A program made the position numbers and the translations under genes. Shown here piece by piece: positions 5,997 to 33,488 of a stretch of DNA of 64,000 bases. A model generated the notes under the pieces. It did no database searches, was not told where the DNA came from, and saw nothing but the letters and a program-made list of their open reading frames with translations. The DNA is from Alphaproteobacteria bacterium (GTDB taxonomy: Bacteria; Pseudomonadota; Alphaproteobacteria; Micavibrionales; UBA2020): the NCBI GenBank assembly GCA_025934695.1, contig JAICWS010000001.1, positions 1-64,000 of the forward strand. The letters run 5' to 3'. The stretch's first letter is position 1; the number at the start of each line of letters is the position of its first letter.

Positions 5997-6731
5997 ATGT
6001 CCAAACCACGGTTCAAGCGCGTCCTGCTCAAGATTTCCGGCGAAGCCCTGATGGGCGAGGGGGAATACGGGATCGAGCTTGCGACTGTCAACCGCATCGC
6101 GCAGGACGTAAAGGACGCCATCAAGCTCGGCGTCCAGGTCTGCCTCGTCATCGGCGGCGGCAATATCTTCCGCGGCGTCTCGGGCGCTTCGGTCGGCATG
6201 GACCGCGCTTCGGCCGACTACATGGGGATGCTGGCGACCGTCATCAACTCTCTCGCCGTGCAGAACGCGCTTGAGAAGATCGGCGTCGACACCCGCGTGC
6301 AGTCAGCAATTCCGATGGCCAGCGTATGCGAGCCCTACATCCGCCGCAAGGCGCTGCGCCACATGGAAAAAGGCCGCGTGGTCATTTTCGGCGCGGGGAC
6401 CGGCAACCCGTTCTTCACCACCGACACCGCCGCCGCATTGCGCGCCTCGGAAATGAGCTGCGATGCGCTGCTCAAAGGCACTAAGGTCGATGGCGTCTAT
6501 ACGGCTGATCCGGTCAAGAACCCGAGCGCCAAGAAGCTCGACCAGATCACCTATCTCGAAGTGCTGGCGAAAGACCTGGGCGTCATGGACGCCTCGGCCA
6601 TCGCCCTTGCGCGCGAGAGCAATATTCCCGTCATCGTCTTTTCCATCAAGCGTCCGGGCGCCTTTGCGGAGTTGATGCAGGGACGCGGCGAATGCACCAT
6701 TGTGACTGAAAAGGAGGCTGTCAATGCCTGA
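5997..6731 (+). CDS. pyrH: UMP kinase
   Basis: Phosphorylates UMP to UDP with ATP in pyrimidine nucleotide synthesis; cytosolic hexamer of the amino-acid-kinase fold. 244 aa, typical. The N-terminal phosphate loop region ([13 protein letters not shown]), the glycine-rich GGGNIFRG and the [14 protein letters not shown] segment are all conserved, as is the acidic C-terminal ATP site ([13 protein letters not shown]). The Shine-Dalgarno GAGGGGGA precedes ATG by about 8 bases. Its end overlaps frr by 8 bases, indicating coupled translation. Confidence 0.97.
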
Positions 6732-31131: not shown

Positions 31132-31645
31132 CTTTCTGAAGAAGCTGAAGAACTTTCGGCTGGTTCCGAATGCTGACAAGATGAAGGCGAGCACTTTTCG
31201 CAAGTTCATCAACCTCTGGCCGCCGTTCCTGGGCGCCGGCATCAAGGTCAGCAAAATCGCGCCCGACTATTCGTCCGCCGACGTGGAGATGAAGCTGCGC
31301 AGCTGGAACAAGAATTACGTTGGCACGCATTACGGCGGCTCGATCTTTTCGATGACCGATCCGTTCTTTGCGCTGATCCTGATCAAGGGCCTGGGCAAGG
31401 ATTATATCGTCTGGGACAAGGCCTCCGAGATCAAGTTCAAGAAGCCGGGCAAGGGAGTTATTACCGCGCATTTCAATATAGCGAAGGAAAAAGTCCAGGA
31501 AATCCGCGAACTCGCCGAAAAGAACGACAAGGTCGAGCCGAAGTTCGTGGTCGAGGTGAAGGACGAAGCGGGCGACGTCGTGGCCGAAGTTACTAAGACT
31601 CTCTACGTCCGCCACAAAAGCAAGCCGCCCAAACCGCGGCCCTGA
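31121..31645 (+). CDS. DUF4442 hotdog-fold (thioesterase-like) protein, 174 aa
   Basis: Hotdog-fold protein of the DUF4442 group, related to acyl-CoA thioesterases. Conserved segments are WNKNYVGTHYGGSIFSMTDP and the strand pairs that follow. The N-terminus (MKFDFLKKLKNFRLV) is basic and amphipathic, and the tail is Pro/Lys-rich (KSKPPKPRP). GGAG lies 7 bases before the ATG. The catalytic role is not established for the family. It is last in the valS unit; downstream is the non-coding hairpin array. Confidence 0.78.
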   Translation: MKFDFLKKLKNFRLVPNADKMKASTFRKFINLWPPFLGAGIKVSKIAPDYSSADVEMKLRSWNKNYVGTHYGGSIFSMTDPFFALILIKGLGKDYIVWDKASEIKFKKPGKGVITAHFNIAKEKVQEIRELAEKNDKVEPKFVVEVKDEAGDVVAEVTKTLYVRHKSKPPKPRP

Positions 31646-31650
31646 TTTTG

Positions 31651-31748
31651 AAAAAAAAGGAGACGAAGGCAGCTTGGAGGATAAATCCAACAAATCGCCG
31701 TTCGTCTCCCGCTCAGTCTTACGGCCGGCGCGTGGAAGCCGTTCCTTA
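31651..31748 (-). ncRNA. Candidate small RNA, unit A (degenerate copy of the hairpin array)
   Basis: On the minus strand, a hairpin with arms at 31659–31670 and 31697–31709 (GGAGACGAA pairing TTCGTCTCC) is followed at once by eight T (31651–31658), an intrinsic-terminator layout. The loop contains an inner stem TTGGA/TCCAA exposing TCCTCC, an anti-Shine-Dalgarno-like sequence. A GGAA…TTCC mini-stem lies at the 5' side (31734–31745). It shares the GGAGACG stem with units B and C but lacks their separate GC-rich terminator hairpin. No promoter can be assigned with confidence. Confidence 0.4.
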
Positions 31749-31777
31749 GCCGACCGCGATGGATGATGATACCTCTC

Positions 31778-31930
31778 AAAAAAAAGCAGACCCCCGCGTC
31801 AGGGGGCGGGGGTCTGTTTTCAATCCGGGGGGAAAGAGAAGGAGACGAAGAAAACGTCCGATTTTGACATCTTCAGTTTCTTGCGTCTCCCGGTTATTCC
31901 AACACGCGCCCCGGGAAAGTTGTTCCGCGC
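31778..31930 (-). ncRNA. Candidate small RNA, unit B of the hairpin array
   Basis: Minus-strand order: a 5' GGAA/TTCC mini-stem; hairpin I with arms 31841–31853 and 31877–31890 (GGAGACG…CGTCTCC); and a C-rich linker, TTCTCTTTCCCCCCGGATTG (31821–31840). A perfect 11-bp hairpin with 8-base loop follows (arms 31787–31797 and 31806–31816, CAGACCCCCGC), then one base and eight T (31778–31785). That is a strong intrinsic terminator in this orientation. The terminator hairpin and linker are identical in unit C exactly 200 bases away. No open reading frame of plausible composition fits. Confidence 0.5.
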
Positions 31931-31967
31931 GCCTGTAAAATTCGTAACACCCATGCTTCGGATTGGG

Positions 31968-32128
31968 AAAAAAAGCCCCAAAATAACAGACCCCCGCGTC
32001 AGGGGGCGGGGGTCTGCTCAATCCGGGGGGAAAGAGAATGGAGACTGAAGAATTTCCGATTTTGAGGTCTTCTATTCCTCGCGTCTCCGGTAATTCCAAC
32101 CAAGGAAAGGCTTAAGGCGTTCCTTTCC
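31968..32128 (-). ncRNA. Candidate small RNA, unit C of the hairpin array
   Basis: Same minus-strand layout as unit B. It has a 5' stem GGAAAGG/CCTTTCC (32104–32128), hairpin I (GGAGAC 32040–32045 with GCGTCTCC 32081–32088), the same C-rich linker and the same 11-bp terminator hairpin (31987–31997 with 32006–32016). TTATTTT and a run of seven T at 31968–31974 follow. The loop and upper stem of hairpin I differ from B while the base of the stem pairs in both, which suggests structure under selection. The 40 bases on its 5' side are AT-rich and could hold a promoter. Confidence 0.5.
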
Positions 32129-32269
32129 GATTCATGATTTTTTAAATTGTCATAAAATTCACGAAGAGAGTTTCTGCACCTGGATGGCAGCGCAGCGAGG
32201 TCAGACACCGTTGCGCCTGGTCTTTTAAAGGCGCAATATTCGTCCATATCTCTATCAGGGATTGCGTAA

Positions 32270-32746
32270 ATGATCGAAATCAAGGCGCCCGACGATTATA
32301 CGGGCATCAAAGGCAAAAAGGCGATCTTCCTCGCCGGCAGCATCGAAATGGGCAAAGCCGAAAACTGGCAGGAGCGCCTCGTCTCCGCGCTGCGGCATTT
32401 CGACGTTCTCATCCTCAACCCGCGCCGCGCCCATTGGAACGCCTCCTGGGAACAGAGCATCGACAATCCCGATTTCTGCCAGCAGGTGGAGTGGGAGCTC
32501 GATGCGCTTGACCGGGCCGACCTCGTTATCTTGTATTTCGCGCCTGAGACCCGCTCGCCGATATCCCTGCTTGAGCTCGGCATTCATGCCGCCGCCAACC
32601 CGGACAAGCTGATCGTCTGCTGCCCGGATGGCTTCTGGCGCAAGGGCAATGTGGATATCGTCTGCCGCCGTTACGGCGTCCGCCAGGTCCCGGCGATCGA
32701 CGATCTTGTGAAGAGCGCCGTAACCTTTGTACAGAAGGCGGCCTGA
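32270..32746 (+). CDS. Nucleoside 2-deoxyribosyltransferase-like protein, 158 aa
   Basis: Rossmann-like protein of the nucleoside 2-deoxyribosyltransferase-like group. KAIFLAGSIEMGKAENWQ opens the nucleotide-binding part. SWEQ, WELDALDRADLVILYF and the probable catalytic glutamate in SPISLLELGIHA near residue 105 follow. Relatives cleave or transfer deoxyribosyl groups, or hydrolyse deoxynucleoside monophosphates; the substrate here is not known. One base separates it from the next small gene. Upstream lies the hairpin array. Confidence 0.78.
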   Translation: MIEIKAPDDYTGIKGKKAIFLAGSIEMGKAENWQERLVSALRHFDVLILNPRRAHWNASWEQSIDNPDFCQQVEWELDALDRADLVILYFAPETRSPISLLELGIHAAANPDKLIVCCPDGFWRKGNVDIVCRRYGVRQVPAIDDLVKSAVTFVQKAA

Positions 32747-33075: not shown

Positions 33076-33399
33076 TTAGTACAGCTGAACCGCGTCGATG
33101 ATCTTACGATCGCTCTTGTTGATGAGATAGACGTTGCCGCCCGAGCTCACATAAGTCGCGCCTGCGGGGGCCGGCACGAGCTTGGTCGTCACAGTGGACG
33201 GCAGTTCGGTGTAGGTGACCGTCTCGGGCAGGATGGTGCCCGGCGAATAGAAGGTCACGTTCTCCGAGGGAGCCGTTACGTAATCCTTCAGGATCACGCG
33301 GTCGGGATCGCGGAAATAGACATCGGCCTTCGCGGACACGCTGGCCAGCAGGCCGGCGGCGATCAGGGCGAGAGCAAAGGGGGTCGCAAGCTTCTTCAT
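33076..33399 (-). CDS. DUF1236-like exported protein, 107 aa
   Basis: Small secreted protein. The signal peptide (MKKLATPFALALIAAGLLAS) is probably cleaved after AKA near residue 24. The mature part resembles the DUF1236 pattern: ETVTYTELPSTV, then a proline-glycine segment and VYLINKSDRKIIDAVQLY at the C-terminus. Periplasmic location is inferred. ATG at 33399 has GGAGG 8–9 bases upstream, which settles the start against a longer frame. Role unknown. Confidence 0.72.
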   Translation of the reverse strand: MKKLATPFALALIAAGLLASVSAKADVYFRDPDRVILKDYVTAPSENVTFYSPGTILPETVTYTELPSTVTTKLVPAPAGATYVSSGGNVYLINKSDRKIIDAVQLY

Positions 33400-33488
33400 T
33401 TGATATCCTCCGTTGGGTGATTTCACTTGCAATCAACGCCAGGAGCCAGCGTAAAGTTCCGCGGCACGGGAGGGTGGCTTTATTAAAA

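Follow-up and report, generated by a model that had tools for sequence, protein, structure and literature searches.

GsrN of Caulobacter is a sigma-T/EcfG-dependent small RNA (sRNA) whose C tract pairs with the katG leader; it is described as one gene, typically near ecfG-nepR-phyR (not in C. crescentus) (PMC5869019). ReC64, an EcfG1-dependent ncRNA of Rhizobium etli, lies directly behind an EcfG consensus promoter; it is one gene, placed downstream of phyR-tcrY, and its start was confirmed by 5' RACE (PMC3892343). In the literature compared here, EcfG-dependent sRNAs appear as single genes. Multicopy sRNAs have also been described. CcsR1-4 of Rhodobacter are processed by RNase E out of a single transcript that also carries the DUF1127 gene ccaF1, with one RpoHI/RpoHII promoter and a terminator at the 3' end (PMC10253847). 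In Neisseria, the two tandem homologous NmsR sRNAs carry CU-rich stretches complementary to ribosome sites (PMC5688073), and the Burkholderia 'toxic small RNAs' of RF02278 are double-hairpin RNAs of 57-92 nt with three to five dispersed homologues per genome (PMC5688073, PMC4603805).

Here we analysed a 64-kb stretch of alphaproteobacterial DNA (64,000 nucleotides, hereafter the window) together with the genome to which it belongs (G000). Within it stands a tandem array of three hairpin units, A, B and C, which are probably minus-strand small-RNA genes, each with an EcfG-like ECF promoter and an intrinsic terminator and driven by a stress sigma factor. This reading is based on sequence comparison, i.e. 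on a register of promoter and hairpin that stays fixed, on covariation in the hairpins, on paralogues and an orthologue, and on occurrence in five of the six genomes of the genus.

By its published description, GsrN resembles the units in its stress ECF-sigma promoter, its RNA of ~100 nt, its 3' intrinsic terminator and its six loop cytosines (PMC5869019), but many dispersed copies are found here instead of one gene. As described, GsrN also has its C-rich loop in the 5' half, whereas here the 5' part is a GGGAGAC hairpin and the C tract stands between the first hairpin (SL1) and the terminator. ReC64 shares the position directly behind an EcfG-type promoter and differs in being a single gene. 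CcsR1-4 are tandem homologous sRNAs like the units, and a role in stress defence is described for them (PMC10253847), but they share a single promoter and operon with ccaF1, where each unit here comes with a promoter motif and a terminator of its own. NmsR is similar in its tandem homologous arrangement and differs in being described as two copies. RF02278 shares with the units dispersed copies, two hairpins and CU-rich unpaired stretches; against its gathering threshold of 50, however, B scores 22.9 bits and C 15.8 bits. The units thus appear to form a new sRNA family of a known general kind, with an unusual multiplicity and two forms, seen in one genus so far; among the matches listed in a search of titles and abstracts, mostly outside subscription journals, the family was undescribed. 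A dispersed family with a stress-type promoter for each copy and two forms would extend the sRNA arm of the alphaproteobacterial stress response.

Architecture of the array

The original prediction placed three minus-strand units within 31651-32128, and all three were recovered in the sequence; the pattern GG[AG]GAC-N5..60-GTCTCC occurs in the 64-kb window only at A, B and C. We have high confidence that these units are real as sequence features. They are flanked by a DUF4442 gene and a nucleoside-deoxyribosyltransferase-like (Nuc_deoxyri_tr2) gene, both on the opposite (plus) strand. Their elements, and one further motif nearby, are given below, the predicted RNA starts at 31711 (A), 31892 (B) and 32089 (C) being placed from the promoter motif.

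31717..31745, minus strand: unit A promoter motif GGAAC-N18-GTA, with the weakest -10 element of the three (sequence motif)
31651..31711, minus strand: unit A predicted RNA, short form, ~61 nt (fold, promoter position)
within 31651..31711, minus strand: unit A hairpin GGGAGACGAA...TTCGTCTCC, then T8
31898..31926, minus strand: unit B promoter motif GGAAC-N18-GTTGGA (sequence motif)
31778..31892, minus strand: unit B predicted RNA, long form, ~115 nt (fold, promoter position)
31841..31890, minus strand: unit B SL1, the conserved GGAGAC...GTCTCC hairpin (alignments, pattern)
31824..31833, minus strand: unit B C-tract, predicted UCC[CCCC]GGA mini-hairpin (invariant sequence, predicted fold)
31787..31816, minus strand: unit B terminator hairpin, followed by a T-tract to 31778 (terminator scan, paired changes)
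32095..32123, minus strand: unit C promoter motif GGAAC-N18-GTTGGA (sequence motif)
31968 (or ~31980)..32089, minus strand: unit C predicted RNA, long form, ~110-122 nt by choice of T-tract (fold, G001 orthologue)
32040..32088, minus strand: unit C SL1 (alignments, pattern)
32022..32031, minus strand: unit C C-tract mini-hairpin, predicted (invariant sequence, predicted fold)
31987..32016, minus strand: unit C terminator hairpin, same sequence as that of B (repeat comparison)
33435..33460, minus strand: further GGAAC-N18-GTT motif upstream of a small ORF (pattern search)

The units folded more stably than dinucleotide shuffles (z of -2.95 for A, -3.69 for B and -5.04 for C), and a terminator scan of 31400-32500 returned nine sites against 1.8 +/- 1.4 in shuffles, five of them being the nested minus-strand terminators of B and C and the other four lying elsewhere. 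The long hairpin of A was missed because the scan requires a loop of 3-8; it folds and stands directly before T8, and is therefore taken as the terminator of this unit.

Much of the original description of the repeats was borne out, i.e. the T-tracts at the 3' ends and the identity of the 30-base terminator hairpin in B and C (copies at 31787 and 31987, spacing exactly 200). The 20-base C-rich linker is also identical in B and C, but its copies (31821 and 32019) are spaced 198 and not 200 bases apart. Likewise, the common GGAGACG…CGTCTCC hairpin is present in the window with its seventh stem pair broken in C, where the minus-strand arm reads AGTCTCC. The 5' GGAA/TTCC stem, which had been assigned to the RNA, is better placed in the promoter: its GGAA directly follows GTT in B and C and belongs to the GGAAC element in A, and it is therefore probably untranscribed promoter DNA. 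The bounds first given to the units begin 37-39 nt ahead of where the RNAs are predicted to start, and the RNA length, put at 95-160 nt, becomes ~61-122 nt when counted from the promoter positions.

A plan of the cuckoo/CcsR type had also been suggested, and tandem copies, two hairpins, a C-rich stretch and an alphaproteobacterial host would all fit an sRNA operon of that kind. The repetition of a promoter motif and a terminator in every unit disagrees with it, as does the motif itself, which is of the ECF and not the RpoH type; moreover, DUF1127 was absent from the two flanking genes scanned and Rfam gave no match at gathering score. Such an operon is, in our view, scarcely credible, and separate tandem minus-strand small-RNA genes, as the original prediction had it, are supported by the promoter motifs, the terminators, covariation, the orthologue and the paralogues.

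Copies and distribution of the family

A DNA search of the genome itself added two copies: D, which is full and 89% identical (C3:921 kb), and E, which is short (C3:607 kb). Altogether G000 holds 11 units, i.e. A-E, F-J at C3:1013-1021 kb and K at C3:1083 kb. F-J (L163) are five short units spread over 8 kb, with nearly identical hairpins and a promoter motif each. At least seven further units were found in congeners (two in G001, three in G002, one in G003 and one, cut off by a contig end, in G005), and none in G004, which is 77% complete, leaving units in five of the six genomes of the genus.

An orthologue of C adjoins the same Nuc_deoxyri_tr2 gene in G001. In G003 two divergent hairpins are arrayed between the same two flanking genes, which in G002, G006 and G009 are direct neighbours with no units between them. 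Two hairpins of the syntenic arrays, G003u2 and G005u2, were rejected as units, having no recognisable promoter (15.5 and 15.0 bits). Both (L168:2929-3003 and L169:2556-2630, respectively) end in short T-tracts.

Searches with covariance models, which had been proposed together with Rfam as a check, recovered units within one genus. Model R1 (from B and D), run over 18 genomes of the family, gave five matches in G000, two of them to the opposite strand of units, and one in G001; its matches in G012 (one), G002 (two) and G008 (one) were rejected as ordinary terminators, none with the promoter motif or the SL1 sequence. Model R2, comprising promoter and SL1, was built from A-E, G001c, G002a and G003u1. 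At E <= 0.05 it matched in 13 of the 142 genomes scanned in the order, and five of these were accepted, all in the genus (G000, G001, G002, G003 and G005). R2 recovered F-K, G001k, G002b and G002c, none of which belonged to its building set. Rejected matches, in G007, G057, G068, G032, G118, G121, G029 and G043 (E 7e-4 to 0.044), lacked the combination of promoter motif, hairpin and T-tract. Over 385 genomes of the class (a sample), R3 found units only in G000, and its matches in G162, G407, G445 and G204 (E 1e-4 to 0.006) were rejected on the same grounds. Both the R2 and the R3 scans used stricter filters, by which weak matches are lost. An exact 20-base pattern matched two records, one of them equated with G001; the other, from Treponema, was discarded, since the matched bases there look like the last part of a protein frame. 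Rfam, for its part, gave no match at gathering score in the window and a single tRNA across ten unit-bearing loci; with E up to 10 on 31600-32300, its 19 weak matches were all below their own thresholds. As far as detected, the dispersed family thus seems confined to one genus.

The contrast between 11 copies in G000 and one to three found in each of four congeners, together with the near identity of the F-J hairpins within 8 kb, is what a REP/MITE-like mobile hairpin would produce, spreading with no regulatory role in the host. Under such spread, one would not look for promoter spacers that diverge alongside an unchanged GGAAC, TTGG and spacing, for the same motif without the hairpin upstream of protein genes, or for an orthologue of C at the same gene in G001. 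Each of the 13 R2 matches in G000, furthermore, corresponds to a unit with a promoter (11 in all), on the same or the opposite strand; R2 itself contains the promoter, however, and with the strict filtering applied it could have passed over copies that lack one. We regard a mobile hairpin as very improbable.

Unit D is located in the leader of an HSP20 gene (G000 C3:921 kb; L059 ~6301-6510, minus; L002:949-1618, minus), where AAGGAGAC, which resembles a ribosome site, has its complement in GUCUCCUU of SL1; the predicted fold of the whole leader pairs the two. D may accordingly double as a cis switch on HSP20, as modelled, which would be compatible with small-RNA genes. That the units in general are cis-acting leaders or attenuators and not free sRNAs is quite improbable: A-C have no likely same-strand gene close downstream, the DUF4442 gene and the preceding valine-tRNA-ligase-like ORF being on the plus strand, and strong terminators end B and C.

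Promoter motif and candidate sigma factors

The EcfG binding motif of Sphingomonas melonis is given as GGAAC-N17-20-GTT, and ATT and GTA endings are present among published EcfG targets (PMC6599016). Upstream of the hairpins we found GGAAC-N18-GTT in B and C and GGAAC-N18-GTA in A, with 9 nt from the end of the motif to the stem; in G000 this gap is 9-10 nt. GGAAC-N17/18-[AG]T[TA] has 12 sites in the 64-kb window, both strands considered, three of which begin 35-36 nt before hairpins A, B and C. Where the 5' part is complete, as in 17 units, the EcfG-type motif stands directly upstream in every case, as GGAAC-N17/18 followed by GTT (7), ATT (9) or GTA (1), the motif being counted by eye in C, G001c and G002b. 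Six of the 17 (A, B, C, D, G001c and G003u1) had been detected without use of GGAAC, i.e. through the original prediction, DNA similarity or synteny.

In G000, GGAACN{16,19}GTTGGA occurs 13 times against two for the reversed control (nine against two when units B-E, four of the 13, are set aside), with a spacer of 17 or 18 at 12 of the 13 sites. The same motif was below the reversed control in each of the other five genomes of the genus, and the shorter GGAACN{16,19}GTT was below control in G000 as well (377 against 484); counts alone are therefore no proof of a regulon. The register of the motif relative to the hairpin is stronger evidence than its count, and we consider EcfG-type control of the units likely on these sequence grounds.

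Genes behind the motif include a hemerythrin in G000 and, in G003, DUF1328, EF-hand and glycine-zipper-like genes, the glycine-zipper matches being just under the Pfam cut-off; a Pfam match was absent in five of the nine motif-linked ORFs scanned, including four of the five from G000. Near the array lies a small ORF (33076-33399, minus strand) with a GGAAC-N18-GTT beginning 61 nt ahead of its ATG; the start codon and a signal-like N-terminus were judged by eye, and the ORF possibly belongs to the same regulon as the units.

The PhyR_sigma2 profile of Pfam matched three places in G000, all in ORFs read as ECF sigma factors, and two of these genes (C1:248734-249309 and C1:257254-257862) exceeded the cut-off of 27, with 27.8 and 28.7. 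The best solved-structure match of the C1:257254-257862 product was 5uxx_A (E 4.8e-27), which we take to be an EcfG-NepR complex. No NepR match was obtained in G000 with the NepR profile and no PhyR with PF22029, both profiles being short and liable to miss; the sigma factor and its switch are therefore inferred. The two EcfG-like genes are on contig C1, and all 11 units of G000 on C3. The EcfG-like sigma genes lie amid several receiver-domain proteins (C1:244-258 kb; L057, L058). One of them is followed by a short ORF, anti-sigma-like by eye, with its own GGAAC-N17-GTT and without a Pfam or NCBIfam match.

Short and long forms and their possible action

In an alignment of 18 units fitted to the model, 92.0% of 212 SL1 cells were paired, with two-sided changes in 8 of 12 pairs, and none of 500 shuffles reached the covariation score. 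An unfitted MAFFT alignment of eight units gave similar values (91.7% of 96 cells; two-sided changes in 5 of 12 pairs), and sliding the partners by 1-3 columns left 42-64% paired. As for the earlier claim that pairing is kept despite the sequence differences between B and C, the stem alignments uphold it for the lower and inner stem.

In the long forms (B, C, D and the G001 orthologue), SL1 is followed by a UUUCCCCCCGGA tract that does not vary and by a terminator that covaries; TTCTCTTTCCCCCCGGA, between SL1 and the terminator, is invariant in all four. Terminator and mini-hairpin together had 56 of 56 cells paired in these four, a covariation score reached by 8 of 500 shuffles; two-sided changes affect 3 of the 11 terminator pairs, D differing from B by paired changes. 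The three pairs of the predicted UCC[CCCC]GGA mini-hairpin are invariant among the four, with no covariation. In B, the C-tract occupies approximately positions 60-69 of 115, behind SL1. A small peptide of B, MSKSDVFFVSFSFPPD, was discarded, its stop being missing in D and its ATG in C and G001c.

Short forms contain nothing beyond the promoter motif, the hairpin, which is at once the terminator, and the T-tract, and their loops vary in sequence and length. This plainness would suit promoter-plus-terminator modules that titrate a sigma factor or insulate neighbouring genes, the RNA being a by-product, as would the placing of several copies where genes end: a same-strand ORF precedes F, G002b and G002c, and A, reading toward the DUF4442 gene, stops just before its stop codon. 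Yet the lower stem is conserved in sequence beyond what pairing asks, and the invariant C tract and terminator loop of the long forms would be needless in a plain terminator, so that we hold such modules to be unlikely.

If the units are small-RNA genes under a stress sigma factor, as we favour, the family probably tunes the stress response. Stress would activate or release the sigma factor, each unit would then be transcribed from its own promoter, and the RNAs would accumulate. Stems at the 5' end guard RNA against 5'-dependent decay; the transcripts would begin at or near the GGGAGAC stem, and their 5' hairpin could shield them in this way. The C6 tract of the long-form units B, C and D, presented in a small loop, might pair with G-rich stretches of target mRNAs or leaders, and by analogy these RNAs may work in the manner of GsrN, by way of their six cytosines. 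The short form (A) has no obvious exposed seed.

A general anti-Shine-Dalgarno action of the C-tract linker found no support, as no preference over shuffled linkers appeared in 56 start regions of the window: 97 of 100 shuffled linkers were at least as strong on average, and 18 of the 56 regions reached -12 kcal/mol or below with the linker against an average of 17.7 with shuffles (coding control, 8 of 57). Pairing energies of the linker, given raw and without control, were -14.1 kcal/mol for the hemerythrin start region and -10.1 for that of HSP20. Small-RNA genes as proposed here come with exact predicted 5' ends and testable mutations, yielded by the promoter and covariation data.

It is also conceivable, if doubtful, that the family is a lineage-specific expansion of modules made of a stress-sigma promoter and a hairpin, whose many short, 5'-paired RNAs form a pool that titrates the sigma factor, RNA polymerase or an RNA-binding protein or serves as a decoy for it, and that some copies (B, C and D) became GsrN-like regulators on acquiring a C6 seed and a further terminator; were this true, short seedless RNAs would be the ancestors of trans-acting sRNAs. 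Short, possibly intermediate and long units would in any case form a natural series, offering a route to how sRNA genes arise and multiply. Unit J (L163:10470-10622) is followed by TTTTCCCCCGGCG, which is similar to the C tract of the long forms, and by its sequence it may be an intermediate between the two.
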